Source: Planktotalea sp.
Lineage (GTDB): Bacteria > Pseudomonadota > Alphaproteobacteria > Rhodobacterales > Rhodobacteraceae
Length of the DNA: 64,000 nt
Assembly: GCF_018607995.1 (NCBI RefSeq)
Contig: NZ_JABBAL010000006.1
Span: 1 to 64,000, forward strand
Direction of reading: 5' to 3'
This document shows, in pieces, positions 13,195 to 34,734 of this stretch. Numbering within the stretch: the stretch's first letter is position 1; each line of letters starts with the position of its first letter. Under the pieces are notes generated by a model that saw nothing but the letters and a program-made list of their open reading frames with translations, searched no databases and was not told where the DNA came from. The translations under genes and the position numbers were made by a program.

Positions 13195-14385
13195 CTATCT
13201 ACACGCCGCCATAATACCGCGCAGTTCGGCAAGGCCGCGCATTCGCCCGATCAGCGGATAACCTGGCGTGCTATGCCCGCCCAGATCCCCCAGCAGTTCT
13301 TGCCCGTGATCGGGGCGCATTGGAATTTGCCAATCTTCGCGCCCTGCTGCGCGGCGGCGTGATTGCTCCTCCATCAAGGCGCGCACTGTCGCAACCATAT
13401 CCGTATCGCCCTCAAGATGTGCCGCCTCGAAGAAGTCAGGCTTGGACTGATCCGAACTTTTGATCCGCATCGTATTGCGCAAATGCGCAAAATGGATGCG
13501 CGGGCCATGGTGGCGCACAAAAGCAGCACCATCAAAATCTGCCGCGACCCCAAGCGATCCAGTGCAAAGCGTGGCCCCATTGGCAGGCACATCCACCGCT
13601 TCCAAGACCGCCGCATAATCATCCGAGGTCGACATCACCCTCGGCAGCCCCAAAAGCGAAAACGGTGGATCATCAGGATGACAGCACAGGCGCAACCCCA
13701 ACTCTTGAGCAACTGGCGCGACTTCGCCAAGGAAATCAATCAGATTTGCCCGCAATTTTTCTGGGCTGATGCCTGTGTACGTAGCAAGCAAAGCACGTAC
13801 ATCCGCCACGCTCCACGCATCGTTTGCCCCGGGCAGGCCAGCGGTGATGTTATTTTGAAGCGTCGTTTTCTGCGCTTCACTCATTCCATTGAAGCGAGTC
13901 TTCGCCTGCGCCACACAATCGTTTGAGTAGTCGTCCTCCGCCCCGGTGCGTTTCAGAATATGAAGATCGAAGACCGCGAAATCGATCAAATTGAAATGCA
14001 TCGCAGCCCCCCCGTGCGGCTGCGGCGCACGCAGGGTCGTGCGGGTCCAATCCAAGATCGGCATGAAGTTGTAGCAAATCGTACGAATGCCATTTTCTGC
14101 CAAAGCGCGCAAACTCAATTTATACGCGGCGAGGTGATCTTTCATGTCAACCGTCTGTGTTTTGATCGCTTCTGAGACGGGCAGGCTTTCCACCACATCC
14201 CAGTTGAAATTCTGCGCACGCAGCAGGTTTTGGCGCGCAGATATGGCCTTGCGAGGCCATTCTGTTCCAGGGGGAAGATCATGCAAAGCGGTAACAATAC
14301 CTCCAACACCAACCTGATGTAGCTCAGGCAATGTGATGGGATCATCGGGACCAAACCAACGCCAACATTGTTTCATGGTAACCAT
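13195..14385 (-). CDS. uxuA: Mannonate dehydratase
   Basis: MKQCWRWFGPDDPITLPELHQVGVGGIVTALHDLPPG and LRLCCHPDDPPFSLLGLPRVMST are diagnostic. Confidence 0.95.
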   Translation of the reverse strand: MVTMKQCWRWFGPDDPITLPELHQVGVGGIVTALHDLPPGTEWPRKAISARQNLLRAQNFNWDVVESLPVSEAIKTQTVDMKDHLAAYKLSLRALAENGIRTICYNFMPILDWTRTTLRAPQPHGGAAMHFNLIDFAVFDLHILKRTGAEDDYSNDCVAQAKTRFNGMSEAQKTTLQNNITAGLPGANDAWSVADVRALLATYTGISPEKLRANLIDFLGEVAPVAQELGLRLCCHPDDPPFSLLGLPRVMSTSDDYAAVLEAVDVPANGATLCTGSLGVAADFDGAAFVRHHGPRIHFAHLRNTMRIKSSDQSKPDFFEAAHLEGDTDMVATVRALMEEQSRRRAAGREDWQIPMRPDHGQELLGDLGGHSTPGYPLIGRMRGLAELRGIMAACR

Positions 14386-15425
14386 CCTTTTCGAAGCGGG
14401 TGATCTGACAGAAGGGGCAACGCAACGCGCATTCCCGTGCGCGCCGCGTGATAGATTGCTGTGACAAGTTCAACAGAGGCGAGACCATCCTTCAATGGGA
14501 CCGCAGCGTTAGACTTGCCGTTCAGAGATTTTCCAATTTCAGTGAAAAATCCAACAAAACCAACGGCCTCTTCCGGTGTTTGGGCCAGCACTGCGTCAAT
14601 TGTCACCTGTTGATTTGGATCGCGTGCAGTGAAGGTCCACGCTTGTCCGCCCGGCGCGTAGGGTTCAGTGCCCGAGGTCGCTGTGAGATGTTCAAAAACA
14701 AAGCGCAGCCGCGTTTCATCCCGCGCAGCCCCTAAAGTTATGTTGCTTGTGCACAGCGCCCCTGAGCGCATTTCAAAACTGATCGCAGCACAATCTTCTG
14801 TTTCGATGTCATTGACACGCGTCGTCGTCATCGCGCTGAGCGCGGCAATCTCACCCACGATATGTGTCAAAAGATCATGATTGTGGATCGCATGTCCCAG
14901 CACCGCCCCACCACGTTCGCCCGCCCATGTACCGCGCCACGCTGTGGCGTAATACTCTGACCCGCGCGACCAATGGGTCTCCACAGTTGCCGTTTGCACC
15001 TGCCCCGTGAGATCCGCCGCAATCATGTGACGCAATTGCGCCAAGGACGGTCCCCACCGATATTGAAAGACAGGGAATACTTGTTTGCCGCCGGCCTCGG
15101 CCGCATCTTTGATCGCATCTGCATCGGCCATTGAGGTGGCCAAAGGTTTCTCGCAAATCACATGCTTTCCGGCTTCAAGCGCCTTGAGCGTGATCGACAC
15201 ATGAAGGTGTGGTGGCAAGCACACATCGATCACATCAATATCTGGATCAAAGAGAGCATCTTCAATGGCGGCGCTGGCCACGAAATCATCGCCTTCGCGT
15301 ATGTCCACAATTCGGGCAAGGTCTTGATCAATCACCCGCGTCACATGAAAGGCACCACTCAGCTCACGGTAGGCTGCAAGATGTTCGCGCCCGATGCCCG
15401 CGCCCAGAATTGCAACTGTGATCAT
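14373..15425 (-). CDS. Gfo/Idh/MocA family oxidoreductase
   Basis: N-terminal GAGIGREHL, CEKPLATS; 13-bp overlap with uxuA. Confidence 0.88.
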   Translation of the reverse strand: MITVAILGAGIGREHLAAYRELSGAFHVTRVIDQDLARIVDIREGDDFVASAAIEDALFDPDIDVIDVCLPPHLHVSITLKALEAGKHVICEKPLATSMADADAIKDAAEAGGKQVFPVFQYRWGPSLAQLRHMIAADLTGQVQTATVETHWSRGSEYYATAWRGTWAGERGGAVLGHAIHNHDLLTHIVGEIAALSAMTTTRVNDIETEDCAAISFEMRSGALCTSNITLGAARDETRLRFVFEHLTATSGTEPYAPGGQAWTFTARDPNQQVTIDAVLAQTPEEAVGFVGFFTEIGKSLNGKSNAAVPLKDGLASVELVTAIYHAARTGMRVALPLLSDHPLRKGWLP

Positions 15426-16426
15426 TGCGCGTCCGCCAACGCCTGTGCGTGCAGTGCGAGTTCCATCACCTTAAAGCAATGCGCCTGCGTCATAGCGGTT
15501 TCAGATCGGTGTTCGATATCATGCGCAAGCAGTGTGAAATAGGGCAGCCCCGCATCAGCAGCGTCGATCTTTTCACATCGCGTTCCATTTACGAGGATCA
15601 AATGATCCGTGCCCTTAGAACCACCGACATCAGCGTATTTGCGTAGTTCCAGATAACCCTCTGTGCCAAGGATCGTCAGCCGCCCATCACCCCATATCGG
15701 CAAGGCTTCGGGTGTGAACCAATCGACACGAATGTAGCCAGTGCCTTTGTCGCTGCTGATGTTAATCTCACCAAAATCCTGAAACTCTTGGCTCGCTGGA
15801 TTGGCGTAGTTAGCAGTGAACGCGCGGGTGATCTCAGCTTCAGTAGAACCTGTGTAGTGCAAGAATTGGTCAATCTGATGCGAGGCGATATCGGTCAATA
15901 TCCCGCCAAAGCAATCTTTGCGAAAGAACCAATCTGGCCGGGTAGCGCGGTTTAAGCGATGCGGCCCTAGCCCGACTGTTTGTACTACCTTACCGATAGC
16001 ACCCTCTACAACTAGCTCTGATGCGCGCGTGCTCACGGGGGTTTCAAAACGTTCAGAAAAGTTAACGGACCAAATCCGGCCCGTTTTTGCAACCGCGCCT
16101 TTGATTTGCTCTAACTGCGCCAGCGTTGTGCAACCGGGTTTGTCGCTCATCACATCCATGCCATGAGCCATCGCGCATAGCGTTAAGGCCGCGCGATCCA
16201 CTGGAATGGCAGAGATCAAAGCAAGATCAGCGCCGCAGTCTAGCGCCTCCTCTAGACTGGCGAAACGTTTCAAATCGGGAAACCGTTTGCGAAATCCCGC
16301 CAGCGTTTCGGGGCTACCTTCCGTCCAAAAGCCGAGGCATTTCACCCCTGCCTTCTCCATATTCTCGGTCATGCCATAAATGTGGCGATGATCGAGGCCG
16401 AGGGCGATGCTTGTGAGGCTCATCAA
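15422..16426 (-). CDS. Gfo/Idh/MocA family oxidoreductase
   Basis: SDKPGCTT (variant of EKP), GGILTDIASHQIDQFLHYTG; 4-bp overlap with upstream gene. Confidence 0.82.
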   Translation of the reverse strand: MMSLTSIALGLDHRHIYGMTENMEKAGVKCLGFWTEGSPETLAGFRKRFPDLKRFASLEEALDCGADLALISAIPVDRAALTLCAMAHGMDVMSDKPGCTTLAQLEQIKGAVAKTGRIWSVNFSERFETPVSTRASELVVEGAIGKVVQTVGLGPHRLNRATRPDWFFRKDCFGGILTDIASHQIDQFLHYTGSTEAEITRAFTANYANPASQEFQDFGEINISSDKGTGYIRVDWFTPEALPIWGDGRLTILGTEGYLELRKYADVGGSKGTDHLILVNGTRCEKIDAADAGLPYFTLLAHDIEHRSETAMTQAHCFKVMELALHAQALADAQ

Positions 16427-17436
16427 TTAACCTCTGTGCGCTGGCCGTTTTTGCTGGCGCGCTCCATCGCGTCAATCACCGCGTGTGTGAGCAAAGCTTC
16501 GCGTGCTGGAATCAATGGGGGGCGACCTTGCGCGATGGCGTCTGCAAAATCCTCGATCACGCTTTGGTGCCACGCATGGGTGAACCCCATTGGATCCGCG
16601 CCGCCACCGGTTGTCGCTGACGCGCCAAAGACTTCCGTTTCACCGTTAAGATCTGTCAGCGTTAAAATACCCTCCCCTAAAAGGGCGGCACCTTTCGTGC
16701 CTTGAAGCGCAATCGTTTCCGCGCCGCCCGGAAACGCGGCCGTTGTCGCCATAAGGGTTCCGACAGCTCCGCAATCAAACTCAAGTAACGCTCCGGTCCA
16801 ATCTTCGGCCTCTAGGTGGTGAAGCGCGGTGCGTCGCATCATTGCTTGCACTGTTATGATCGGCCCAAGCAACCAGTGCACCAAATCAAGCGTATGAATT
16901 GCTTGCGAGATCATCACACCGCCGCCATCGCGTGCGTAGGTTCCACGCCCTTGCTCATCGTAATAGGCCTGATCCCGCCACCACGGTACGCGGATCTCGA
17001 CGCTCACGATGGTACCCAAACGGTTTGAGGCAAGCGCTTCTTTCAACACAATCGACGCGGCGCGCATGCGTTGCTGAAAGACGACCCCGAGGGGAACTGT
17101 CGCCTTATCGCAAATTTCAACAATTTCGCGCGCGGCATTCAAAGTGCGCTCAATCGGCTTTTCCAAAAGGATCGGCTTGCCCGCGCTTGCCAGTTTTTGC
17201 ACAGCTTCCAAGCGCGCATCAGGAGGCGTTGCAATGATCACCATGTCAATGCTCAGATCCAGTGCGATTGCGTCGATTGAGGGAAAAGCAAGGGTTTGAT
17301 GGATGGCAGCGAACTGCGCCGTTTTGGCAGCATCGCGCCCGAGCACACCGCAAAGCCGCAACCCATGCGAAGAGCTTTGAATCGCGTTGATGTGAGTTTC
17401 AGCCACCATTCCAATGCCAATTAGTGCAATATTCAC
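16423..17436 (-). CDS. Gfo/Idh/MocA family oxidoreductase
   Basis: VNIALIGIGMVAETH, LLEKPIERT, GGVMISQAIHTLDLVHWLLG; GTG start at 17436 preceded by AGGAGA. Confidence 0.88.
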   Translation of the reverse strand: MNIALIGIGMVAETHINAIQSSSHGLRLCGVLGRDAAKTAQFAAIHQTLAFPSIDAIALDLSIDMVIIATPPDARLEAVQKLASAGKPILLEKPIERTLNAAREIVEICDKATVPLGVVFQQRMRAASIVLKEALASNRLGTIVSVEIRVPWWRDQAYYDEQGRGTYARDGGGVMISQAIHTLDLVHWLLGPIITVQAMMRRTALHHLEAEDWTGALLEFDCGAVGTLMATTAAFPGGAETIALQGTKGAALLGEGILTLTDLNGETEVFGASATTGGGADPMGFTHAWHQSVIEDFADAIAQGRPPLIPAREALLTHAVIDAMERASKNGQRTEVN

Positions 17437-17532
17437 CACGTTCTCCTGTCTGGTTTGATTTGAGCCATTGAAACGACAGTTTGCAAGCTGCAATACTGCT
17501 CAAAGCACAGGAAATTGCGCGGAGAGATCACC

Positions 17533-18897
17533 ATGACACCAAACTTTCGAACCGCGCAGGACAGGCTTTATCACAGCATCAAAGACCTGCCGATTGTGTC
17601 GCCGCATGGGCATTGTGAACCCGCTTGGTTCGCGCAGAACGTACCTTTCGCAAATCCGGCCGAGTTGTTGGTTGTTCCCGATCACTACGTGTTTCGCATG
17701 CTTTATTCGCAGGGTGTGCCCTTGGCGCGCCTTGGTGTTGGCACCCCCGGCATAACAGCCGATCCTCGCGAGGTGTTTCGGATATTCGCACAACATTGGC
17801 ATCTGTTCCTTGGCACACCCACGCGCACGTGGATAAGTTACGTGTTAGATGAGACCTTGAGCATCAAAGATGCGCTGTCGCCAGTGACGGCTGATAAGAT
17901 CTATGACGACATTTCAGATAAGATAGCGCGTGACGATCACCGTCCCCGCGCCTTGTTCGATCAGTTCAATATTGAGGTTCTCGCAACAACAGATTCCGCG
18001 CTTGATGACTTGCAACACCATGCGAGTATTCGGGCTAGCGGATGGCAGGGTCGTATCATTCCCACGTTTCGCCCCGATGGCGTGCTTGATCCGAGCGATC
18101 CTGCATTTGTGCAAAACCTAGATGCGCTTGCTGCGATAACGCAGACAGATCTGGGCAGTTATGAGGGTTATCTCGCCGCGCTTCGCAAGCGGCGCGCGGA
18201 CTTTGCGGAGATGGGCGCAACGGCGACGGATCACGCGATTGAAACAGTGCATACCGAATGGTTGAGTGATCCAGGGGCACTCTATCAAAGGCTTCGCTCC
18301 GGCAAAGGACAAGAGGACGACGCACTTAGGTTTTATGGGCACATGCTGATCGAAATGGCGCAAATGTCGATTGAAGACGGGCTTACCATGCAAATTCACG
18401 CAGGTAGCAAACGCAACACCAACGCGCAGGTGCTGACTGAGTTTGGGCGCGACAAAGGTGCGGATATCCCTGTCGCCACCGATTGGGTGCGCGGGCTTGA
18501 GGCGCTTTTGAACCGCGTCGGCAACACGCCGAACTTGCGGATCATTTTATTCACCCTTGATGAGACCACATACGCACGCGAACTCGCGCCTATGGCGGGG
18601 CATTGGCCGTGCTTACGCATTGGTCCGCCTTGGTGGTTTCACGACAGCGCGGCGGGCATCGCGCGCTACTTTGATCAGGTTGTGGAGACTGCTGGGTATT
18701 ATAACCTGGCAGGCTTCAACGACGACACGCGTGCGTTTCTTTCGATCCCCGCACGTCATGATTTGTGGCGACGTGGCGTTGCCCAACATCTTGCAACACA
18801 AATCGAAAATGGTGCCTTCGGTTTAAGCGACGCTTCGGAGATCGCACAATTTTTGGCGACGGATTTGGCACGATCCGTTTATGGATTGGATCGTTAA
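17533..18897 (+). CDS. uxaC: Glucuronate isomerase
   Basis: VSPHGHCEPAWFAQN, MQIHAGSKRNTN, GPPWWFHDS motifs; likely ATG at 17533 (MTPNFRTAQDRLY) after GGAGA. Confidence 0.95.
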   Translation: MTPNFRTAQDRLYHSIKDLPIVSPHGHCEPAWFAQNVPFANPAELLVVPDHYVFRMLYSQGVPLARLGVGTPGITADPREVFRIFAQHWHLFLGTPTRTWISYVLDETLSIKDALSPVTADKIYDDISDKIARDDHRPRALFDQFNIEVLATTDSALDDLQHHASIRASGWQGRIIPTFRPDGVLDPSDPAFVQNLDALAAITQTDLGSYEGYLAALRKRRADFAEMGATATDHAIETVHTEWLSDPGALYQRLRSGKGQEDDALRFYGHMLIEMAQMSIEDGLTMQIHAGSKRNTNAQVLTEFGRDKGADIPVATDWVRGLEALLNRVGNTPNLRIILFTLDETTYARELAPMAGHWPCLRIGPPWWFHDSAAGIARYFDQVVETAGYYNLAGFNDDTRAFLSIPARHDLWRRGVAQHLATQIENGAFGLSDASEIAQFLATDLARSVYGLDR

Positions 18898-20094
18898 ATG
18901 GGACGCATTGTTCATTTCGGATTCGGCAATTTCGCGCGCGCCCATCTTTTGGATTATACCGCAGATGCGGGCGGTTGGGATGTTGTTGGTGTCTCGCTTC
19001 GCTCCAACGAAATCCGCGATGGATTGAAGGCGCAAGGGTTCGCATATGGCTTGGCCGTGCAAGGTGTCGGGCTGAAACGCATCGACATTCTGCGCGAAGT
19101 CCTTGTCGCGCCCGAAGACCCTAGCGCTGTGTTAGCCGCGATGACAGGTGCAGATATCATTTCAGCAAGCGTGACCGAAAAGGGCTATCACCTTGGCGCG
19201 GACGGTCTCTTGGACCTGAGTGATCCATCTATCCAAGCGGACCTGAGCGGCACAGGCCCAAGCACGTTGATCGGCTTTCTTGCGAATCATTTATCGACGC
19301 GCCACACCCCGCTCACGGTGATGAGTTGCGACAACCGCGTTGAGAATGGAAGTGTCCTTAAAGCCGCTGTGCAGCGCTTTGCCGAGAGCGCACAGATCGC
19401 AATCAATTGGGCGCTCGTGTCCTTTCCCAACGCTATGGTTGATCGCATCACCCCCGCAACAACGGATGAATTACGCGCCAAGCATAGTGACCCGATGGTC
19501 GTGCCCACAGAGGCGTTTCGCGAATGGGTGATCGAGGACAATTTCAAAGGCCCGCGGCCCAATTGGCCGGATGTTCAATTTGTAAGCGACGTTGCCCCGC
19601 ATGAATTGCGCAAGTTACGGATGCTCAACGGGGCGCATTCCGCGCTCGCCTATACAGGCCTGTTGCGTGGACATAAATTTGTACATCAGGCGATTGCCGA
19701 TCCAGATTTGCGCAAACTTGCGGCTCAGCTTATGTCTGAGGCGGGCTCGACTTTGCCGAAAAACGAACGTGTTCTGGTGCCAGCCTATTCACAAGCTTTG
19801 GTCGAACGGTTTGAGAACCCCGAGTTGGCACATCGTTTGGATCAAATCGCAATGGATGGGTCGCAGAAAGTGCCTTATCGGTTTGCACAAACACTTCGCG
19901 CAGGCCCGGCCCCATCGGTTGCAACGGCCCTTGATGCCTGGCTTGAGTTCTGCATCTCTGAAACCCAGACAGGACACCGCTTGAATGACCCTCTCGCCGA
20001 TGACATTGCGCAAGCGGCGCGCACTTCATCGCCAAAGACGGCGATACTAGCTTTGATTAATTGCGCAGACCTTGTGCCGTTTATTTCGGAATAA
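18898..20094 (+). CDS. uxuB: Mannitol dehydrogenase family protein, probable D-mannonate oxidoreductase (fructuronate reductase)
   Basis: IVHFGFGNFARAHLLDYTADA and KLRMLNGAHSALAYTG motifs; directly follows uxaC. Confidence 0.85.
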   Translation: MGRIVHFGFGNFARAHLLDYTADAGGWDVVGVSLRSNEIRDGLKAQGFAYGLAVQGVGLKRIDILREVLVAPEDPSAVLAAMTGADIISASVTEKGYHLGADGLLDLSDPSIQADLSGTGPSTLIGFLANHLSTRHTPLTVMSCDNRVENGSVLKAAVQRFAESAQIAINWALVSFPNAMVDRITPATTDELRAKHSDPMVVPTEAFREWVIEDNFKGPRPNWPDVQFVSDVAPHELRKLRMLNGAHSALAYTGLLRGHKFVHQAIADPDLRKLAAQLMSEAGSTLPKNERVLVPAYSQALVERFENPELAHRLDQIAMDGSQKVPYRFAQTLRAGPAPSVATALDAWLEFCISETQTGHRLNDPLADDIAQAARTSSPKTAILALINCADLVPFISE

Positions 20095-20944
20095 TCGCAC
20101 CGCGATGCTGAACCACACGCGCGGCGAGGTCGTGTCCGCTTAACAGTGCTTCAGCTTGCGACTTTCCCGTGAGCACAGCGCTAAGATATCCGCCATTGAA
20201 GCTATCGCCTGCGGCGGTCGTATCAATCACGTTGGAAGCGCTTGCGTAGCTTTGCGTGACGTCACTCCCAATCGACATCGGCCCCTCTTCCCCACGCTTC
20301 AAAGCTCCCTGCCCTTCATGTACGGCGAAGCGCGCCGCGACTTCTTGTGCGCTTTGCTCAAATAGCTCCATCTCATCGTCGATTGATGGTAAAACAATAT
20401 CGGCGCGCTCCCACATTGCTATGGTAACCGAGCGCGCGTTTTCAACACTTTCCCAAAGGCGAACGCGATAGTTGCTGTCGTAGATCAGTTTGATCGGCGT
20501 TCCAGACAGCCAATTGAGCAAAGCCAAACGAATGGGATGCGGTAAGATCGCTAACGAAATTCCTGACAGATAGATCGCATCATAGCTGTTGAGAAATTCG
20601 AAATCCCCATCTGCGAATGTCTGACGTGCGGCCGAATTGCTACGCCAATAGGTGAAGCTGCGCTCACCGTCCGGTGTCGTGGTGATTGCGTAAAGACCGG
20701 GGGACGCATCCGTTAGAGTTTGGATCGCCTCGGTGCCCAAATCCTGTGCGTCGATAAAGGCCATGATGCGCTGAGAAAACGGATCGTCACCAAGGCAGGT
20801 GACATAGTCGACCGACAGCTCAGGCGCGCTGCGCTTAAGGTAAATCGCAGTGTTGAGTGTATCCCCTGCCACCCCGACTTGTGGGCTGTCATCGCCCATC
20901 GACAACTCAATCATTGCTTCGCCGATACATGCGATTTTGCTCAT
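20081..20944 (-). CDS. kdgK: 2-dehydro-3-deoxygluconokinase (PfkB family)
   Basis: MSKIACIGEAMIELSM, DTTAAGDSFNGGYLSA; start set at internal Met. Confidence 0.87.
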   Translation of the reverse strand: MSKIACIGEAMIELSMGDDSPQVGVAGDTLNTAIYLKRSAPELSVDYVTCLGDDPFSQRIMAFIDAQDLGTEAIQTLTDASPGLYAITTTPDGERSFTYWRSNSAARQTFADGDFEFLNSYDAIYLSGISLAILPHPIRLALLNWLSGTPIKLIYDSNYRVRLWESVENARSVTIAMWERADIVLPSIDDEMELFEQSAQEVAARFAVHEGQGALKRGEEGPMSIGSDVTQSYASASNVIDTTAAGDSFNGGYLSAVLTGKSQAEALLSGHDLAARVVQHRGAIIPK

Positions 20945-22732: not shown

Positions 22733-23620
22733 TTATGTGATGGTATCAAAGGCACGCTTTTTCATGCCTTTTTGGATTTCATATATCGAGATCGGCACAT
22801 CCGGCTGCGGTTGCGGGATGCGCACTGGAATGTCTTTCAGACGCGGATTGAGAGTGCTTTGACCACAAAGCATGCGGGTATCATAGTCCTTAATCCCGTC
22901 CCAGCGGGTCATCGATCCCATAATCGGAAACGCATCTGCTGCCATCAGCTCAAAGAACAAAATCCGCCGCGCATGATCAGATGTATTCAGCGCTGAGCCA
23001 TGCACAATGCGCCCGTGATGAATGCTGACCGATCCCGCAGGTCCCATCAGTTTCACGGCATCAGCTGGGTTCAAACCGTTCTCGTTTGGCAACATCGCAC
23101 CTGCGAAAACACCGTCCACATGATGGTCAAATACTGGCCCTTTGTGTGAGCCGGGATAGACCATGAGCGGGCCATTCTCTTCGGCCATATCGTCAATGCA
23201 GACACCAATGGCGAGGATATCATCATTGGTATGCGGGTAGAACGCGTAGTCCTGATGCCACTCAACAGCTGCACCGTAGCCCGCTGACTTCATGTTCAGT
23301 TTCGTCGTATGCAAACGCAGGTTCGGCCCGATTAGATCGCGCGCAGGGGCAAGGACATGATCCGATGTCATCAACTCAGCAACCACGTCTGAGATCGTAT
23401 GCGGCAGTTTGATGCGGCGCAGGCGTGGATCTTCTGGCGTGTGGCTGTCTTCCAAATCGAGACGGTCGTTGCTTTGCTCAAGCATGGCAGATTCCAACTC
23501 AAACCGTGCAATTTCAGCGCGTAATTTGGCGAGCCACTCCTCGGGGATTTGACGTTCGAGAAGCAGATATCCGTTCTCATCATACTGCGCAATTTGCGCG
23601 GCGCTCAGCTGTTCAGCCAT
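22733..23620 (-). CDS. Phytanoyl-CoA dioxygenase (PhyH) family Fe(II)/2OG oxygenase
   Basis: WHQDYAFYPHT...GSHKGP...IHHGRIVHGSALNTSDHARRILFF: HxD...H and distal R present; start at MAEQLSAAQ. Confidence 0.87.
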   Translation of the reverse strand: MAEQLSAAQIAQYDENGYLLLERQIPEEWLAKLRAEIARFELESAMLEQSNDRLDLEDSHTPEDPRLRRIKLPHTISDVVAELMTSDHVLAPARDLIGPNLRLHTTKLNMKSAGYGAAVEWHQDYAFYPHTNDDILAIGVCIDDMAEENGPLMVYPGSHKGPVFDHHVDGVFAGAMLPNENGLNPADAVKLMGPAGSVSIHHGRIVHGSALNTSDHARRILFFELMAADAFPIMGSMTRWDGIKDYDTRMLCGQSTLNPRLKDIPVRIPQPQPDVPISIYEIQKGMKKRAFDTIT

Positions 23621-24638
23621 GCAGCAATCCTCTCTCACTCACCTCCGCGAGTTGCGTTTCGATGCTTTCGGCCACGGCAAGTGTACGCGCGGCGTCTGCC
23701 ACATCGATCAAAGGCGTTTCACCGTTCATCAAATCAATGAAGTGATCCAACTGGCTTTCCAGTGGCGGCTTTTCGTTGAGGGCAACTTCGAACGGTATTT
23801 GCTGCGCTGGTGCACCCCATTGTTCGCCCTGCCAAAGCGTCATCGAGGGAAAACTAATCGCGCCTTTGGTGCCGGTGATCCACATCATGTCTTGCATGGT
23901 CGTGCCGATATTGGGGTTTTCCCCTGTGCCCGCCTCAAATCCCCAAGGGCTAGGCGCGGTGTCAGCAAAGCTGATCGTCCCTGTCGCACCATTTTCAAAG
24001 CTCAACGCCACAGCGCCGCTTTCGATCCTGTCGCTGCCACGCGTCGCGCCGCCACGCAGCGCAACCGCACCGACGACTTCGCCAATCACAAAGCGCAAGA
24101 TATCAATGTCATGCACCAAATTGATCATCACAGGGCTGCCCCCTGCGGTGCGCCAATTGCCCTCGAAATACGCGTCCGGCTTACGCATCGCCCAAATCAG
24201 TGAAGCATTCACGACATCCCCGACGATCCCTGCCTTGAGCGCGCGGCGAAGCTGCTTGACAGGTGCATGATAGCGGCGGTGATGCCCCACGAGCGAACCA
24301 ACTTTAGTGTCTTTTAGCACCGCTTCGAGTGCACGCGCCTCTTGCAAAGTCCCAGCCACTGGTTTTTCGATAAGCATATGCCAGCCACGTTTTGCAGCTT
24401 CGATACCTTGGCGTGCGTGCAGATGTGTTGGCGTTGCGATGATCACGCCATCCACGGGCAAATCAACCTCGGTGATCGAAGAAAACCGCAGCACATCTGG
24501 CGTGATACTAAGATCAGGATCGACCAAGCCAACCAACGTGCAATAAGGATGCTCGCGGACCGCTGCTAGATGGCGAATGCCAATTAACCCACCGCCAACA
24601 ACAAGGATGCGCTTCACATCACTGCTCCGATTTGCCAC
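23613..24638 (-). CDS. Gfo/Idh/MocA family oxidoreductase
   Basis: RILVVGGGLIGIRHL, LIEKPVAGT motifs. Confidence 0.87.
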   Translation of the reverse strand: MANRSSDVKRILVVGGGLIGIRHLAAVREHPYCTLVGLVDPDLSITPDVLRFSSITEVDLPVDGVIIATPTHLHARQGIEAAKRGWHMLIEKPVAGTLQEARALEAVLKDTKVGSLVGHHRRYHAPVKQLRRALKAGIVGDVVNASLIWAMRKPDAYFEGNWRTAGGSPVMINLVHDIDILRFVIGEVVGAVALRGGATRGSDRIESGAVALSFENGATGTISFADTAPSPWGFEAGTGENPNIGTTMQDMMWITGTKGAISFPSMTLWQGEQWGAPAQQIPFEVALNEKPPLESQLDHFIDLMNGETPLIDVADAARTLAVAESIETQLAEVSERGLLHG

Positions 24639-26116
24639 GGCACGAACTCATAATCGCCAAGGCCTTGAGCTTCGGATTTTGTCGTCTCACCAGAGGCAAC
24701 ACGCAAGAACATCTCGTAAATTTCGCGGCCCTTTTGTTCAACACTGATCCCTTTGGAGAGGATCTCGCCTGCATCAATGTCCATGTCCTCGGACATGCGC
24801 TGCGCCATTTCCGTGTTTGTCGCGATCTTTACTGTTGGCGCGGGTTTGGACCCAAAAGCTGAGCCGCGTCCCGTCGTGAAGCACACAAGATTGCACCCCC
24901 CTGCGATCTGCCCTGTGACAGAAGCCGGATCATAGCCCGGGCTGTCCATGAAGGTGAATCCACTTGCCGTGACGGGTTCGGCATATTTGTAAACACCTGT
25001 CAGCGGGGACGTGCCACCTTTCGCCGCTGCGCCCAATGACTTCTCTAGGATCGTCGTCAGCCCGCCCTTTTTGTTGCCCGGACTTGGATTGTTATCCATC
25101 GAGCCTTTGTTGCGCGCGGTGTAATCTTCCCACCACTTGATAAGGCCGATCAGCTTGTCGCCTGTGGCGCGATCGACTGCGCGACGTGTGAGCAAATGCT
25201 CTGCCCCATAGATTTCCGGCGTTTCAGCCAATACCCCTGTCGCGCCTTGCCCGGTGAGCAGATCGCAGGCGTATCCCAAGGCAGGATTGGCGGTCACACC
25301 CGACCATGCATCCGAGCCACCACATTGCAGCGCGATCATCAATTCAGACGCAGGGCATTCCGTGCGCGTGGCTTCGTTGGCGATGGGCAGCATAGCTTCG
25401 ATCTTCGCAATCCCAAGCTCCACCGTACGGCGCAGGCCAGCGACGTTTTGGATATTCATCGTTTGAAACGTCGGGCCTTGTTTCAAACCATAGGCTTCGA
25501 GCAACCAGTCGATCTGGTTCATCTCGCAGCCCAGACCCACCATCAAAACACCCGCATGATTGGGATGTTTCGCATAGCCCCACATAACGCGCTGGAGTGC
25601 TTCGAACCCGTCGCCGTCCCCCGCCATGCCGCAGCCAGTGCCATGCACAAAGGCCGCAACGCCATCGACATTGGGAAACTGTGCCAGACGCTCAGGTGTG
25701 AAGTGATCGGCGATCATCCGCGCGGCTGTGGCAGAGCAATTCACGGACGTCACAATCGCAATGTAATTGCGCGTGCCTACGCGACCGTTTTCGCGGCGAT
25801 AGCCCATAAAAGTATCACGTGTCTTTGCAGGCGCGACGGGCCGTAGATCCGTCGAAAACTCGTACTCAGTATCCGTGTTTCGAAACTCGACGTTGTGCGT
25901 ATGAACATGATCACCCGCCTCAATGTCCACCAAGGCATAGCCAATCAGTTGCGCATATTTGCGCACGGGTTCACCCGCTTTCATTGCAACAGTCGCAACC
26001 TTGTGCCCCGACGGGATCAACGCGCGCGTTTGAACATTCTCGATCCGAGCATCGACTTCCAATGCTTTAGTCGCTGTCACGACAGTATCAGCGCGATCTA
26101 AACGGATGAAATCCAT
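24614..26116 (-). CDS. uxaA: Altronate dehydratase family protein (UxaA-like, full length)
   Basis: N-terminal SAF-like part plus YRRENGRVGTRNYIAIV, HGTGCGMAGDGDG, LQCGGSDAWSGVTANPALG, FTTGRGSAFGSKPAPTVKIATNT. Confidence 0.92.
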   Translation of the reverse strand: MDFIRLDRADTVVTATKALEVDARIENVQTRALIPSGHKVATVAMKAGEPVRKYAQLIGYALVDIEAGDHVHTHNVEFRNTDTEYEFSTDLRPVAPAKTRDTFMGYRRENGRVGTRNYIAIVTSVNCSATAARMIADHFTPERLAQFPNVDGVAAFVHGTGCGMAGDGDGFEALQRVMWGYAKHPNHAGVLMVGLGCEMNQIDWLLEAYGLKQGPTFQTMNIQNVAGLRRTVELGIAKIEAMLPIANEATRTECPASELMIALQCGGSDAWSGVTANPALGYACDLLTGQGATGVLAETPEIYGAEHLLTRRAVDRATGDKLIGLIKWWEDYTARNKGSMDNNPSPGNKKGGLTTILEKSLGAAAKGGTSPLTGVYKYAEPVTASGFTFMDSPGYDPASVTGQIAGGCNLVCFTTGRGSAFGSKPAPTVKIATNTEMAQRMSEDMDIDAGEILSKGISVEQKGREIYEMFLRVASGETTKSEAQGLGDYEFVPWQIGAVM

Positions 26117-26140
26117 GTTTGTACTCTCTTCCAGCTTGGC

Positions 26141-27133
26141 TCAGGCGCAGTAAGGCGCGTCAGAGGACCAGCGGTGAATTTCGATATGCGGCGCGTGCGC
26201 AAGCCGCGCGCGGGCCTCTTCCCATTGCCGTTTACAGGCTTTCCAGTCCCGTATTTCAGTTTCGGGATTGCTGAGTGAGCGTGCGACAAAATCGGGGAAA
26301 TGACTTCGGCCTGTGGGTTGCCCCGTCGCGTTGAAGCGAATGTCGAAAGACCAGCGGAACCCATCGGTCACATTGCTCAACGACGCATGGGGTGTCAGGG
26401 GGTGAAACAGGACTGCGCCACCCGCTTTGACAGGCAATGGAATAGCGCCAGCTTCATTTACAAAACCATCGGCGATACCCGTTTGCGTACGCGCACAATG
26501 GGGGAAAATGTCCTGATCCTTCACTTGCGGTTGGACCTGCAAACAGCCGTTCTCAACCGTCGCATCCGTGATTGCAATCCAGACTGTTACCATGTCCGTT
26601 TGATCTGCCTCTTCCAAAGCAACTGCGCGATCCTGATGCCAATCCGTGGCCGTGATATGAGCGCGAATTTCATCGCTGTCGAGCCTTGTCGCAGGCGGTT
26701 TTAGACGCACGTGTTGGATCGGATTGCTGATCAACTCTGGCCCAATAAGTTGTTCCACCACATGCAAAAGCGGCCCCGCCGTGAGCATATCAAACACCGC
26801 AGGCCCGATATGAAACGGCGTATCCGCATGGATACGATCCCCTGGCAACGAGATGTCCATGGGTTGGAAGTAATCCACGCCCGCCTCATAGGCGCTGAGC
26901 AGTTTCCCCCAGAAATCTAGCGTATCTGGCGCTGTGCTCACCAAACCAGCATCAAACCAGCCATTATAAAGCCCATCCAGCAGCGCGCTATATTCCGCGC
27001 GCACCGCCGCGAGCGTGTCGCTGGGGAGAATATCAGGGACAACCAAATACCCTTCGGTCTCAAACTGCTTGATCTGATCCAAACTTAGCACAAGAGGCCC
27101 TCTTAAAGCAGGATTGCGATGATGTTTGGCCAA
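26141..27133 (-). CDS. Phytanoyl-CoA dioxygenase (PhyH) family Fe(II)/2OG oxygenase
   Basis: DWHQDRAVALEEADQTDMVTVWIAITDATVENG...LFHPLTPHASLSN...RWSFDIRF; possible GTG start at 27091 that avoids overlap with the TRAP gene. Confidence 0.85.
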   Translation of the reverse strand: MAKHHRNPALRGPLVLSLDQIKQFETEGYLVVPDILPSDTLAAVRAEYSALLDGLYNGWFDAGLVSTAPDTLDFWGKLLSAYEAGVDYFQPMDISLPGDRIHADTPFHIGPAVFDMLTAGPLLHVVEQLIGPELISNPIQHVRLKPPATRLDSDEIRAHITATDWHQDRAVALEEADQTDMVTVWIAITDATVENGCLQVQPQVKDQDIFPHCARTQTGIADGFVNEAGAIPLPVKAGGAVLFHPLTPHASLSNVTDGFRWSFDIRFNATGQPTGRSHFPDFVARSLSNPETEIRDWKACKRQWEEARARLAHAPHIEIHRWSSDAPYCA

Positions 27134-28734
27134 ATCAACAGCACGGATAGAGCCATCAATTGAATACCGATAAAGGGCAAGAACCCCTTAAAGATATCGG
27201 TGAGACTGATGTGAGGCGGTGCTACCGACTTCAGGTAGAATGCGGCAGGTCCGAAGGGCGGTGACAGGAAACTGACCTGCATGTTCATACAGAAAACCAC
27301 CCCGAACCAGACCGCGACATGGTTTGGTTGCAGCTCTCCAATAAAGCCGATTTCGTCGATGGGTAGGCGTAACACGATAGGCAGGAAAACAGGGATAATA
27401 AGCAACACGATACCGACCCAATCCATGAACGCGCCCATAAACAAAAGGATCAACATCATCATCAAAATGATCGCCATGGTTGGTAGATCCTTCCCAACGA
27501 TCAAATCAGCCACATACTGCGGACCGCCTGCGATGGTGTATGCGCCAGCGAGGGCAGCTGCGCCGATTGTCACCCAGATGATCGTGCCTGTGGATTTCAA
27601 AGTGCGCATGAGGCTGTCCCAGACCAGCTCGAAAGACCCTTCACCGCGCAGAATTGCGATAACGAGAACCGCGAATGCGCCCATGCCAGCGGCCTCGGTA
27701 ATGCCTGTGATGCCGCCATAGATGGAGCCGAGAACAACCCCGATCACGACCATCGGCGCAACGAGGCCCTTGCCCATGTCCCATCCAATCTTGGAGCGCT
27801 CTTTGCCGAACACGAAATAGATTAGGAAAAGCGAGATTGCGACAATGCCCGCGAGCCATGGAATATGCGACATTGTGCCAAGACGCGCCACATCGCCGCC
27901 GCTCTCAATCGCGGCTGCATTCGAGCCAGAAAGCTCAAAGAACGACGCGCGAATGAACAAGGCAGTGGCAAAACCACCCACAACGATAGCCATGAACGCA
28001 CCGAACAGTTTACGCTTTTCAACAGGCTCGGGATCGTTTGGATCAGGCTCTGGCAACGGCGCGTCTTCAGGGCGCAGTTGCGTGCGCACGATGATGTAGA
28101 GGATGATCATCGAGGCGAGCATGAAACCCGGAACAAAGGCAGCCGTGAACAGCGCTTTAATAGAGGTTTCTGTGATCAGGCCATAAATGATCAAAACAAT
28201 CGACGGCGGAATCATCGTGCCAAGCGAACCAGACGCACAGATCACACCAATAGCGAGGTTTTGATTATACCCAAGCCGCAACATCTGCGGCAGCGCGATT
28301 AACCCCAGTAAAACGACTTCACCGCCAATAATGCCAGACATTGCCGCCATGATAACGGCCATGATCGATGTGACAATCGCGATGCCACCACGCGTGCGCG
28401 ATAGCCAAACGTTCAGCGAGGAATACATGTCTTTGGCGATGCCAGAACGTTCCAACAGTGACGCCATAAAGATGAACAGCGGCACTGATATGAGCACGTA
28501 ATCGGTTAATAACCCGTATATTTTTTGAGCAAGGATATAGAGCGCCCCGGTCCCCGGCCGACTGGTGAGCATTCCGTCTCCAAAGGTCATCGGGTTCAAG
28601 AGCAACGCAGGCTCAAACTTCATCACCAATACCAGCACAGCAAGTGCTGCAGAGGCAAGTCCAAGCGGCATACCGATAGCCAACAGTCCGATCAGCGCGA
28701 GCATCAGGACCAGCGAAATTGTTCCAATATCCAT
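27103..28734 (-). CDS. dctM: TRAP transporter large permease (DctM-like)
   Basis: Multi-TM, SGIIGGEVVLLGLIALPQMLRLGYNQNLAIGVICASGSLGTMIPPSI. Confidence 0.92.
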   Translation of the reverse strand: MDIGTISLVLMLALIGLLAIGMPLGLASAALAVLVLVMKFEPALLLNPMTFGDGMLTSRPGTGALYILAQKIYGLLTDYVLISVPLFIFMASLLERSGIAKDMYSSLNVWLSRTRGGIAIVTSIMAVIMAAMSGIIGGEVVLLGLIALPQMLRLGYNQNLAIGVICASGSLGTMIPPSIVLIIYGLITETSIKALFTAAFVPGFMLASMIILYIIVRTQLRPEDAPLPEPDPNDPEPVEKRKLFGAFMAIVVGGFATALFIRASFFELSGSNAAAIESGGDVARLGTMSHIPWLAGIVAISLFLIYFVFGKERSKIGWDMGKGLVAPMVVIGVVLGSIYGGITGITEAAGMGAFAVLVIAILRGEGSFELVWDSLMRTLKSTGTIIWVTIGAAALAGAYTIAGGPQYVADLIVGKDLPTMAIILMMMLILLFMGAFMDWVGIVLLIIPVFLPIVLRLPIDEIGFIGELQPNHVAVWFGVVFCMNMQVSFLSPPFGPAAFYLKSVAPPHISLTDIFKGFLPFIGIQLMALSVLLIWPNIIAILL

Positions 28735-29576
28735 CAGTCTTGCCCCACTGCTTTTCGTAGCATTTCGATTTCGTCTTCATCCGGTTCGTCAGTGTGAATT
28801 ACCGGCTCTTTATTCCAATCCGCGATCAGGTTCAGCACTGCTTGGATCGCCACTAGTGTGATCACGATCAACACCATCGGCTGTAAGGTCGCGGGGATAG
28901 GCGGGTTAAAGGCAGAGCCATAAAGCTCCCATTTATATAGCTTGTTGACAAAGACCTGCTTGTAACTGCCGTAAACGAGGAAAAAGGCGAACATCACAAT
29001 CAGCAGTGTTGAGATCGTGTCGAACACCTTTTGAAGCCAGCGCGGCACCGCATCATAAAGCAAGAAAATGCGGATATGGCTGCGTTGCTGCATCGCGTAG
29101 AAGCCGGATGTGAGGAAAACGAAGCTCGCAAACCACAGCGTCATTTCATTAGCCCATTCCGTCGGCTTTTCAACGATGTAGCGCATGAAGACTTCGTAGA
29201 GCATCACGATCGTCATCACCGCGATCATCATCATGGTCACACGACCAATGAAAAGTGCCGCACGGTCAATGCTACTCGCGCCCTCATACTCGATGCCTGC
29301 TGCTTTGACGTTGCGCGCGCCGACAACGGCAAGGATGGGCGACAGAATCAGGGCTGTCATATCGATGACGTCAATATGACCGCCAAAGATGCCACCCAAG
29401 TTTGGCGTAATGTCCGCCTTTTTGTAGATCGCCTCGACCTGACCGCGCAGCGAGTCTGATGTGTAGGAAATCCAATCGAGCATAAAAGCTGGCATGTGCC
29501 AGACCAGCCAACTCATGACCCCGACAAAGGCCAGTGGTATCAGCCATTCGATTAGCCCACCTGTTCTCTTTTGCAT
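28734..29576 (-). CDS. dctQ: TRAP transporter small permease (DctQ-like)
   Basis: EVFMRYIVEKPTEWANEMTLWFASFVFLTSGFYAMQQRSHIRI; 1-bp overlap with dctM. Confidence 0.88.
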   Translation of the reverse strand: MQKRTGGLIEWLIPLAFVGVMSWLVWHMPAFMLDWISYTSDSLRGQVEAIYKKADITPNLGGIFGGHIDVIDMTALILSPILAVVGARNVKAAGIEYEGASSIDRAALFIGRVTMMMIAVMTIVMLYEVFMRYIVEKPTEWANEMTLWFASFVFLTSGFYAMQQRSHIRIFLLYDAVPRWLQKVFDTISTLLIVMFAFFLVYGSYKQVFVNKLYKWELYGSAFNPPIPATLQPMVLIVITLVAIQAVLNLIADWNKEPVIHTDEPDEDEIEMLRKAVGQD

Positions 29577-29594
29577 CTGAGATCCCCTTTGTCG

Positions 29595-30764
29595 CTATGC
29601 GGCAATGCTGTAGTGTTCAATGAAATCGCGATCCGGCTCGACACCGATACCTACCCCTTGAGGAATGGCGACGCGGCCTGCGTTCGCTTTGACTTGACCT
29701 TGGATATCCAAGGGTTCAGCCAGCAAATTATCGCGAAATTTGTTATCCGTAGTATCGAATTCGAGCATCGGCTCCCACGGATGAAGCCCGCCCGGTAGCG
29801 GCGGCATCGCCGCGAGGAGTTGCAGGTTTGTTGCAACCGCGATCGCGCTGCCCCAGACATGATTAATCACGGGCGTGAAGTGCGCATGGCACAGGGCCAA
29901 CACGCGCAGATATTCAGAGACGCCACCCAGCGCGCAAACTTCGGGTTGCGCGATATCAAGCCCTCGGTTTTCCAAAATGTTGCGCCAACCCCAGCGATTA
30001 AACTCCGCCTCTCCGCCAGAAATATTGACCCGCAAGCCAGCGCGCAATTCGCGGTACCCATCAAGATCCTCTGGCGCGATGGGTTCTTCGAACCAATAGG
30101 CATCCAGTTCTTCCAGGGCGCGGCCAACATAGAACGCATCGGACGTAGTGTAACAGTGGTTCGCATCCACCATGAATTTGAAATCATCGCCAACGCCGCG
30201 CCTTACGGCTTCGCAGAGTTTGACATCAGGTTTGGGACCAAAGCCGACCTTCATTTTTGTCGCCGTAAATCCCATAGCTTTGATTGCTGCGGCCTCGTCC
30301 TCGAACCGCTTCGCCAAATCATCGACAGGTTCATCGCGCAACATCATACCGTAGCCATAACAATGCACGCTCTCGCGATGCGCGCCGCCAATCAGCTTGT
30401 GCAGCGGCAAACCCGCGATCTTGCCCGCAATGTCCCACAGCGCAATGTCCACGCCCGAGAGGGACTGCATCGGCATGCCCTTTTGTCCATGATCTCGCAG
30501 AAGGTTGTAGACCTTGTGCCAAATCACGTCGCGATCAATCGGATCCATCCCCAAGGCCATCGGCTGGATGACCTTTTCAACAATCGCTTTGTTAGCTATC
30601 GCCACATTGCCGGGACCGAAGCACTCGCCCCAACCGGTAATGCCCTCATTCGTTTGCACCTCGACCAGATGGGCCGAACGCTTGTCATAATATTGCTGCG
30701 AATAACCAAGAACCTCGGGCATATCGTAGTGCAATACATGAGAGATGATGCGGGTGATTTTCAT
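29595..30764 (-). CDS. Enolase superfamily protein, D-galactarolactone cycloisomerase-like
   Basis: LSGVDIALWDIAGK, TKMKVGFG, FMVDANHCYT, WFEEPIAPEDL, NHVWGSAIAVATNLQLLAAMPP. Confidence 0.83.
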   Translation of the reverse strand: MKITRIISHVLHYDMPEVLGYSQQYYDKRSAHLVEVQTNEGITGWGECFGPGNVAIANKAIVEKVIQPMALGMDPIDRDVIWHKVYNLLRDHGQKGMPMQSLSGVDIALWDIAGKIAGLPLHKLIGGAHRESVHCYGYGMMLRDEPVDDLAKRFEDEAAAIKAMGFTATKMKVGFGPKPDVKLCEAVRRGVGDDFKFMVDANHCYTTSDAFYVGRALEELDAYWFEEPIAPEDLDGYRELRAGLRVNISGGEAEFNRWGWRNILENRGLDIAQPEVCALGGVSEYLRVLALCHAHFTPVINHVWGSAIAVATNLQLLAAMPPLPGGLHPWEPMLEFDTTDNKFRDNLLAEPLDIQGQVKANAGRVAIPQGVGIGVEPDRDFIEHYSIAA

Positions 30765-30790
30765 CGGATGGAAGGTCCTAAGATAAGAAC

Positions 30791-30818
30791 GGCAAGGCCA
30801 TTAGAGAATAGCCTCGCC
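30791..30818 (-). terminator. Intercistronic hairpin after dctP (attenuator-like)
   Basis: Minus strand GGCGAGGC-TATTCTCTAATG-GCCTTGCC followed by GTTCTTATCTT. Confidence 0.5.
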
Positions 30819-30848
30819 GAAGGTCGTTAAATCAACTTTAGATGTTGA

Positions 30849-31871
30849 TTATTCCATTGCACCAATGCCGCGCAGGAATTCCAAGTGGCTACCCAACAGT
30901 GCTTCTGCTTCTGGAGTTGTCGCAAAGTCTGTCCAAGCGGCTTGAACAGCATCGCGGTATTTCGCGGTCTCTTCTGCAGGCCACTCATACATGTTGACAC
31001 CTTCAGCAGCCAAGGTAACTGAATTTTTGGCGTTCTCAACTTCGTTGATGGACGTGTTCTTCAGTGCCAAGGCTTGCATGCCGACTTTCAAGATCGCTTG
31101 GTGGTGCGCTGGCATTGCGTCCCAAATGTCCTTGTTACACGCAAGGTGGTCAGCAGGCATTGAGTGGAAGCCAGGGTAGTTTGTGTGCTTGGCAATGTCA
31201 TACAGTCCAAGACCGATGTTGTTAGTCAAGTTTGCAGCGTCCGCACCGTCGATGATACCTGTTTCAAGCGCTGTAAAGATTTCGTTGAAATCCATAACGA
31301 TTGGCGATGCACCAAGGTTTTTGAAGATGTTTGTGATCATGCCTGGAGGTGAACGGAACTTCCAGTTTTTGAAATCTTCAACACCACGAATAGGCGCAGT
31401 AGACGCGAGCGATTCAGGACCAGGGATCCACCAGCCAACAAATTCCATGCCATATGGGTTGTACAGATCGTTCAACGCTTTGTAGCCGTCACCGTGTAGC
31501 AACCAAGACATTTGCTGGTAGGGGTTTGCATAACCACCGTTCAAATCGCCCGCAAATTGGAACGCAGGGTTTTTACCGGTTTGATAAGCACCACCCGTCA
31601 TGTCGCAATCAAGAATACCTGTCGCCGCCGCGTCGAATGTTTCAACAGATTTCACAACGGAAGAACTGTAGAACATTTCGATAGCGATTTCACCGTTGGA
31701 CATAGCTGTGACGTCTTCGATGAAGCTCGCCGCCATCTTGCCGGAAAGGGTCTCAGGCGAGAAGTGTGTTTGGATACGCAGCTTTGTTGTCGCATGACCG
31801 TCAGCTACTGCAGATGTCGCAGCCAATGCCGCAACAACAGCGATAGACGCTACTGTTTTCATTAATTTCAT
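30849..31871 (-). CDS. dctP: TRAP transporter substrate-binding protein (DctP-like)
   Basis: Signal peptide, LRIQTHFSPETLSGKMAASFIEDV, KFRSPPGMITNIFKNLGASPIVMDFNEIFTALETGIIDGAD. Confidence 0.92.
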   Translation of the reverse strand: MKLMKTVASIAVVAALAATSAVADGHATTKLRIQTHFSPETLSGKMAASFIEDVTAMSNGEIAIEMFYSSSVVKSVETFDAAATGILDCDMTGGAYQTGKNPAFQFAGDLNGGYANPYQQMSWLLHGDGYKALNDLYNPYGMEFVGWWIPGPESLASTAPIRGVEDFKNWKFRSPPGMITNIFKNLGASPIVMDFNEIFTALETGIIDGADAANLTNNIGLGLYDIAKHTNYPGFHSMPADHLACNKDIWDAMPAHHQAILKVGMQALALKNTSINEVENAKNSVTLAAEGVNMYEWPAEETAKYRDAVQAAWTDFATTPEAEALLGSHLEFLRGIGAME

Positions 31872-34559: not shown

Positions 34560-34734
34560 GCGGGACCTTTCCTGTGCCACCCCCAAATCGGGGAATGGTC
34601 AAATCAAAAACTCTGACATACGCTAACGATCAAATGCAAAAGGGCCAGATTGCTTGGCCAAGAAAGATCAATGTCGCGCAAATTAGTCTACCTCTGAAAA
34701 GGCACTTCGCGCTGAGAAGAAAGAAAAATACAAT

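Follow-up and report, generated by a model that had tools for sequence, protein, structure and literature searches.

Redox-based breakdown of glycosides through 3-keto intermediates has recently been recognized as an alternative to glycoside hydrolases. Several described systems of the Gfo/Idh/MocA oxidoreductase fold bear on this chemistry. Enzymes of the WbpB/WlbA type oxidize C3 of UDP-N-acetylglucosaminuronate (UDP-GlcNAcA), a uronic acid bearing a leaving group (PMC10622841). In the levoglucosan pathway LgdA–LgdB1–LgdB2–LgdC a logic of oxidation, elimination, hydration and reduction has been shown (PMC7676230), and for YjhC the same sequence has been proposed to run within a single Gfo-fold enzyme (PMC7315737). 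Here we analyse a stretch of 64,000 nucleotides of a Planktotalea sp. contig (hereafter the window), in which three adjacent Gfo/Idh/MocA genes, Gfo3, Gfo2 and Gfo1 in the order of transcription, are followed by uxuA on the minus strand at positions 13195–17436, while uxaC and uxuB run divergently, an arrangement that an earlier note on this DNA had described correctly but for small corrections, among them the order of transcription. The trio is a real, conserved, widespread and co-inherited module that is functionally unnamed; none of the family models used names its members, and the literature accessible to our search yielded no paper that deals with the trio or with a glucuronide 3-dehydrogenase.

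A co-inherited gene trio in a glucuronate setting

All three proteins belong to the Gfo/Idh/MocA family, with a PF01408 Rossmann domain and a PF22725/PF02894 C-terminal domain above cut-off. Since their pairwise identity is just 24–25%, Gfo1, Gfo2 and Gfo3 are not recent duplicates. Gene order was compared around the 80 closest of 302 Gfo2 relatives in named genomes, a sample that is enriched for near relatives and contains some truncated loci; the open reading frames (ORFs) of the relatives were called by a codon-usage-weighted method. Gfo3 lies immediately 5′ of Gfo2 in 69 of these loci and Gfo1 immediately 3′ in 54; the full trio is present in 47, and Gfo3–Gfo2 without Gfo1 in 22. With Gfo3 and Gfo1 recurring at these positions in most of the loci, the arrangement cannot be ascribed to chance. 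Loci with the module are alphaproteobacterial in many cases and gammaproteobacterial in some. Its gene order goes together with more than one kind of transporter: loci of the window type have a TRAP-linked sugar-acid cluster, others an ABC importer with an SBP_bac_1 protein and a third group a Tct-type importer.

The genes of glucuronate catabolism accompany this module. UxaC, UxuB, UxuA and KdgK, which make up the Ashwell pathway from glucuronate to 2-keto-3-deoxy-6-phosphogluconate (KDPG), are all encoded adjacently; UxaC and UxuA exceed their family cut-offs, and UxuB and KdgK are named by their best-matching families at scores under cut-off (Table 1). At least one of uxuA, uxaC and uxuB was found within the fetched flanks of 47 of the 80 loci, including 36 of the 47 full trios. 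Genes of this kind flank 11 of the 22 Gfo3–Gfo2 pairs as opposed to none of the 11 loci without Gfo3, so that the link to glucuronate genes tracks Gfo3. Co-occurrence in 101 related genomes provided an independent test (the Fisher p-values ignore shared ancestry). Gfo2 is encoded in 15 and Gfo3 in 16 genomes, 14 of which are shared (p = 3e-14), and Gfo1 in 10, always together with Gfo2 (p = 2e-10). UxuA is present in 11 of the 15 genomes with Gfo2 compared with 14 of the 86 others (p = 2e-5), and UxaC in 9 of 15 compared with 11 of 86 (p = 2e-4).

In a few loci the trio adjoins further genes that serve as glucuronide markers. A GH2 protein of 590–592 residues is encoded directly after Gfo1 in locus L062 and after a Gfo1–UxuB fusion in L065. 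Its best NCBIfam match is beta-glucuronidase (232 and 206 bits, under the cut-off of 544), and it carries an NRK stretch where beta-glucuronidases have their NxK motif, a position that we assumed from Escherichia coli GUS. The fusion itself (L065, 11017–13434) stems from a metagenome-assembled genome of Marinibacterium, in which the Gfo1 frame runs stop-free into a complete UxuB domain to give 805 amino acids; in this single metagenome-assembled record the stop codon may possibly have been lost by assembly error. A protein with a glucuronoyl-esterase domain follows Gfo1 in L107 and L108 (PF22244, 47.8 and 64.5 bits; cut-off 27). Both types of neighbour are rare, with 2 of the 80 named loci each. 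Synteny, co-occurrence, the GH2 and glucuronoyl-esterase-like neighbours and the Gfo1–UxuB fusion place the trio in a glucuronide or hexuronate setting, and we consider it highly probable that the module serves the catabolism of such compounds.

Gfo1 and Gfo3 resemble uronide 3-dehydrogenases

Among all solved structures, Gfo1 matched WlbA best (3q2i, 140 bits, residues 4–338), and the next family, glucose–fructose oxidoreductase (GFOR), reached 74 bits. A Gfo3 profile of 22 sequences scored 168 and 163 bits against WlbA and 113 bits against the glucuronide-3-dehydrogenase P2B11 (8tdi); WlbA (3q2k/3q2i) and P2B11 are thus its closest solved relatives, and the glucoside enzyme DgpA (98 bits), 3db2 (89) and the inositol dehydrogenase 4hkt (87) followed further down. 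We take 8tdi to be part of the study of 3-keto glycan breakdown by Nasseri et al. (Nature 2024, doi 10.1038/s41586-024-07574-y).

Of the relatives, 54 of 54 for Gfo1 and 65 of 66 for Gfo3 carry the motif WxRxxxYY, which the aligned sequences of WlbA and P2B11 also show and those of DgpA, GFOR and 3db2 do not. As WlbA and P2B11 are both named for activity on uronosides, this pattern suggests that WxRxxxYY is a uronoside signature. WlbA, the UDP-N-acetylglucosaminuronate 3-dehydrogenase, also shares EKP and (Q/H)AxH with Gfo1 and Gfo3, while P2B11 has the Gfo/Idh fold and the uronide motif in common with Gfo3 at 22% identity by structure alignment. EKP occurs in every Gfo1 and Gfo3 relative, and the active-site His is invariant in the Gfo3 alignment. 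The dinucleotide loops, GAGIGREH in Gfo1 and GIGMVAETH in Gfo3, are recognizable variants of GxGxxG. The residue at the end of strand 2 is an established clue to the cofactor, Asp pointing to NAD and GR to NADP; the Asp of Gfo1 and the GR of Gfo3 at this site suggest that the former uses NAD and the latter NADP. The AF2 model of Gfo3 (predicted local distance difference test (pLDDT) score 88.9) superposes with similar template-modelling (TM) scores on many Gfo enzymes, among them 2glx, 5uhw, WlbA, GFOR, levoglucosan dehydrogenase and P2B11, and the fold alone therefore does not discriminate between them. Taken together, the sequence comparisons support a kinship of Gfo1 and Gfo3 with uronide 3-dehydrogenases rather than with inositol dehydrogenases, a kinship that does not extend to Gfo2.

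The resemblance stops at the pathways in which these relatives work. WlbA functions in the biosynthesis of nucleotide sugars, where its partners are an aminotransferase and an acetyltransferase, whereas the setting of the trio is catabolic: its neighbours are uxaC, uxuB, uxuA and kdgK, and no C3 aminotransferase, N-acetyltransferase or 2-epimerase is adjacent. Owing to the absence of these biosynthetic partners, we do not claim that the trio belongs to a WlbA pathway. The operon also differs from P2B11 in comprising three Gfo genes plus uxuA. The levoglucosan pathway encodes separate elimination and hydration enzymes together, for which the operon in the window has no counterpart, and membership in that pathway is not claimed for this reason.

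Gfo2 combines a conserved active site with a rebuilt loop

The Rossmann match of Gfo2 is marginal (Table 1) and covers residues 48–123 only. Its AF2 model (pLDDT 93.4) is most similar to 3u3x from Sinorhizobium meliloti (TM-score 0.96, 48% identity) and also matches 2p2s from Erwinia carotovora (TM-score 0.94, 44% identity); both are members of the same family, and their entries carry no assigned function. In place of GxGxxG, Gfo2 has GLDHRH, and an altered loop likewise occurs in 3u3x (GLNHNH) and 2p2s (GLAHNH), with Asn and Ala, respectively, instead of the Asp. The divergent N-terminus of Gfo2 on which the earlier note had remarked is hence real, but it characterizes the whole family and is no local oddity. 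The same note had read SDKP in place of EKP as a sign of altered cofactor handling. This suggestion did not hold, for DKP is found in 79 of 79 Gfo2 relatives checked, the catalytic lysine and the proline being retained, and it is the Gly-rich loop that is the relevant feature.

Across 35 aligned relatives H12, R13, H14, K95, D178 and H182 are invariant (numbered from the ATG). A Lys/Asp/His site is known from inositol dehydrogenases. Since K95, D178, H182 and the HRH segment do not vary, Gfo2 has kept this site while its dinucleotide loop was rebuilt, which may reflect a different way of binding NAD(P) or another reaction. The HRH loop and the Lys/Asp/His site could be taken to mean that Gfo2 is no ordinary dehydrogenase but the eliminase/hydratase of a 3-keto-glucuronoside, and the trio a self-contained, hydrolase-free glucuronidase built from a single fold; we regard this as quite unlikely. 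The sulfoquinovosidase SqgA (8qc3, 8qc5) and YjhC (6o15), NAD-dependent oxidoreductive glycosidases of the Gfo fold with net hydrolysis by internal redox cycling, match Gfo2 and Gfo3 structurally, but at 14–20% identity and with other substrates, so the likeness is one of fold only, and Gfo2 is without the usual Gly-rich cofactor loop.

Relatives of Gfo2 also occur in a different set of genes. In L079, L082, L088 and L106 they stand with a TetR regulator, another Gfo protein and an AP_endonuc_2 protein, with no uxu genes; a DUF993 protein accompanies them in the first three of these loci.

A proposed route and its alternatives

The explanation that we favour overall, with a probability of roughly 47%, is C3 redox processing of glucuronosides that feeds UxaC, UxuB, UxuA and KdgK. 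One of Gfo1 and Gfo3 would act on a glucuronoside after its import and oxidize its C3 hydroxyl; the aglycone would then be lost by β-elimination followed by rehydration. These steps could be catalysed by Gfo2 or by a partner encoded elsewhere in the genome, or could proceed spontaneously. Once the aglycone is gone, the other of Gfo1 and Gfo3 would reduce the 3-keto sugar, and the resulting D-glucuronate would enter the UxaC–UxuB–UxuA–KdgK pathway. The C3 chemistry, the direction in which each step runs, the part played by Gfo2 and the release of glucuronate are all inferred. Best supported among these points, and somewhat probable, is that Gfo1 and Gfo3 act on the C3 position of a uronoside; the full route of oxidation, elimination, hydration and reduction as written is put forward tentatively, at slightly less than even odds; and cleavage of the glycosidic bond by the trio would be plausible. 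By its presumed mode of action we file the module as a variant of oxidoreductive (3-keto) glycoside processing.

Support for such a route comes from the genome that contains the window, a 94% complete assembly, in which GH2_C, GH67, GH115 and GH4 gave no match; its path from glucuronosides to glucuronate is consequently not explained by these four glucuronidase families. The earlier note had likewise considered an oxidative release of glucuronate from glucuronides. Of this idea, the glucuronide or hexuronate setting and the kinship of Gfo1 and Gfo3 to uronide 3-dehydrogenases stand, whereas cleavage and release do not follow, given the lack of an eliminase or hydratase in the operon and of UxaC in part of the Gfo2-bearing genomes.

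Several observations weigh against C3 processing of glucuronosides. First, the operon in the window contains no eliminase/hydratase of the AP_endonuc_2 type. Intact AP_endonuc_2 genes are located on other contigs of the genome, including one on contig C26 that has a Gfo gene on either side, and their products could act in trans; near trio members such genes were found in about 10 of the 80 loci only. Second, UxaC is absent from 6 of the 15 Gfo2-bearing genomes, and we therefore rejected a universal feed of the trio into UxaC. In two of the six (G007 and G030) a KdgD-like gene scores slightly under the cut-off of 373.95 bits (367 and 362 bits) and would permit a glucarate route, a rescue that accounts for these two UxaC-less genomes alone; G019 still has UxuA. 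The remaining three (G006, G025 and G036; 3 of the 15) are without UxaC, UxuA and KdgD, and as such genomes exist, it is not established that the trio generally yields free glucuronate. Third, Gfo3–Gfo2 pairs without Gfo1 occur in 5 of the 15 genomes, in addition to the 22 of 80 loci, and a fixed division of oxidation and reduction between Gfo1 and Gfo3 accordingly cannot be universal. Conversely, Gfo2–Gfo1 pairs without Gfo3 are near uxu genes in 0 of 7 cases. Finally, the homology of Gfo3 to substrate-informative structures is distant, at 22–27% identity in structure alignments, and the glucuronidase-like GH2 gene beside the trio in L062 and L065 makes hydrolysis available there.

Part of this evidence would fit an interconversion of hexuronate or aldonate stereoisomers by the trio, in which unusual uronic acids are channelled into the glucuronate or altronate branch by oxidoreductive epimerization and no glycosidic bond is cut. 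Inositol dehydrogenases carry out epimerizations of this type on inositols. Two or three dehydrogenases without a dedicated eliminase would suit a scheme of oxidation and subsequent reduction, and TRAP transporters, often importers of free sugar acids, are linked to the module in many loci. Moreover, G006, G025 and G036, which lack UxaC and UxuA, still encode KdgK and a UxaA/GarD-like dehydratase next to the trio; by synteny the dehydratase stays with it where uxaC/uxuA are missing (L018, L020 and L026). On the other hand, the closest homologues act on glycosidically linked uronides, and the GH2 and glucuronoyl-esterase-like neighbours as well as the SBP_bac_1-type ABC importers indicate glycosides. 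On balance we judge epimerization unlikely.

Less probable still is an accessory role to hydrolases, in which the trio would not replace them but act, before or after ordinary hydrolysis, on glucuronate that carries a modification, such as 4-O-methylglucuronate or a differently substituted uronosyl unit. The NxK-bearing GH2 protein in L062 and L065 and the glucuronoyl-esterase-like gene after Gfo1 in L107 and L108 would agree with such a role, as would the phytanoyl-CoA-dioxygenase-type proteins in the sugar-acid cluster of the window, which could hydroxylate or demethylate. However, the rarity of the hydrolase and esterase neighbours (2 and 2 of the 80 loci) and the absence of the four tested glucuronidase families from the window genome speak against it. 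We give little credence to the view that the three proteins are independent dehydrogenases for different substrates, united by a common operon and regulator in an island for sugar-acid scavenging: although their low mutual identity and the several further sugar-acid enzymes of the wider cluster would allow it, their co-occurrence is near-perfect and their order is kept in many loci and alongside different transporters. A place in inositol catabolism with an incidental uxu link, finally, is very improbable and was rejected: IolG ranks first or nearly so among the NCBIfam names for Gfo1 and Gfo3, yet TIGR04380 (IolG) scores of 83.2 (Gfo1), 34.4 (Gfo2) and 106.1 bits (Gfo3) lie far below the cut-off of 355, the structural kin of Gfo1 and Gfo3 are WlbA and P2B11, and the loci showed no complete iol set; the homologues fixed in inositol catabolism that the earlier note had named as a counter-argument to its proposal were thus not encountered.

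Layout of the locus and neighbouring genes

Table 1. Features of the trio locus and the linked sugar-acid cluster (positions in the window)
Feature	Position	Strand	Description	Family matches
uxuA, D-mannonate dehydratase	13195–14376 (likely start 14376)	−		TIGR00695 449.6 bits (cut-off 199.55)
Gfo1	14373–15425	−	WlbA-like Gfo/Idh/MocA dehydrogenase; ETHWSRGSEYYATAWRGTW, GHAIH, EKP, Asp ending strand 2	PF01408 89.7 bits; PF22725 67.9 bits
Gfo2	15422–16423	−	divergent Gfo/Idh-fold protein; GLDHRHIYG replacing GxGxxG, DKPGC, TDIASHQ	PF22725 51.7 bits; PF01408 24.9 bits (cut-off 24.0)
Gfo3	16423–17436	−	WlbA-like Gfo/Idh/MocA dehydrogenase, transcribed first in the operon, GTG start; PWWRDQAYYDEQGRG, SQAIH, EKP	PF01408 76.8 bits; PF22725 89.3 bits
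Divergent intergenic region uxaC/Gfo3	17437–17532		holds the conserved element TTGCAAGCTGCAA at 17481–17493	
uxaC, glucuronate isomerase	17533–18897	+	divergent	NF002794 496.6 bits (cut-off 387)
uxuB-like fructuronate reductase	18898–20094	+	short mannitol-dehydrogenase-family protein	PF01232/PF08125; best NCBIfam PRK15037 224.5 bits (under cut-off 603)
kdgK-like 2-keto-3-deoxygluconate kinase	20081–20944	−		PF00294; NF052444 263 bits (under cut-off 400)
GfoX	23613–24638	−	fourth gene of the Gfo/Idh/MocA family, part of the linked sugar-acid cluster	PF01408 59.8 bits
UxaA/GarD-like dehydratase	24614–26116	−		PF20629/PF04295/PF08666; TIGR03248 365.7 bits (under cut-off 730.85)

The genes of the operon are tightly joined. 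The 13-bp overlap between uxuA and Gfo1 reported in the earlier note is probably an artefact that arises when the first ATG (14385) is chosen as start: alignments to TIGR00695 and PRK03906 begin at residue 4 of the longer ORF, MKQCWRWFGPDDP, and for this reason the ATG at 14376 is the most likely start, which would leave a 4-bp ATGA overlap. The tight ATGA junction of Gfo2 and Gfo1 overlaps by 4 bp, as had been stated. Between Gfo3 and Gfo2 the 4-bp overlap claimed before is retained if Gfo2 starts with the TTG at 16426 (TTGA) and shrinks to 1 bp if it starts with the ATG at 16423 (TGATG). Upstream of Gfo3, alignment of the spacers between uxaC and Gfo3 from related loci shows a conserved stretch resembling TTGCAAGCTGCAA, which is a possible operator or promoter element.

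On the minus strand at 22733–31871 the window contains a sugar-acid cluster that is kept in relatives and includes a TRAP transporter, the UxaA/GarD-like dehydratase, the fourth Gfo protein, a mandelate-racemase-type enzyme and two phytanoyl-CoA-dioxygenase-type proteins. The dehydratase is among its most conserved members, at about 74–98% in many loci. With respect to the imported compound, the DctP protein of the window is nearest to a group that binds lactate and ketoacids, the matches of DctP from L094 are scattered over many binders of sugar acids and other ligands, and the SBP_bac_1 protein of L058 has no solved relative at 1e-15.

In Ketogulonicigenium, uxaC, a gene of the mannitol-dehydrogenase family and uxuA are divergent from Gfo3–Gfo2. 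On a plasmid of Ketogulonicigenium vulgare (L111), genes annotated as 3-dehydroquinate synthase, eboE, a UbiA-family prenyltransferase and EboA, which form an ebo-like cluster, come directly after Gfo3–Gfo2. Related proteins of about 840 amino acids are encoded near the trio in L077 (7199–9724) and L108 (1147–3669); they matched no family in Pfam (both) or NCBIfam (L108 only). Further along the minus strand of the window, a D-erythronate dehydrogenase gene (NF043036, 349.8 bits; cut-off 325) lies beside a tartronate-semialdehyde-reductase-like gene at 32713–34586, and an AP_endonuc_2 remnant (xylose-isomerase-like TIM barrel, 104 bits) with four in-frame stops, which looks like a pseudogene, is located at 41147–41845.

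Implications

If C3 redox processing of glucuronosides by the trio is true, it would account for the use of glucuronosides by marine bacteria that lack the four glucuronidase families tested.

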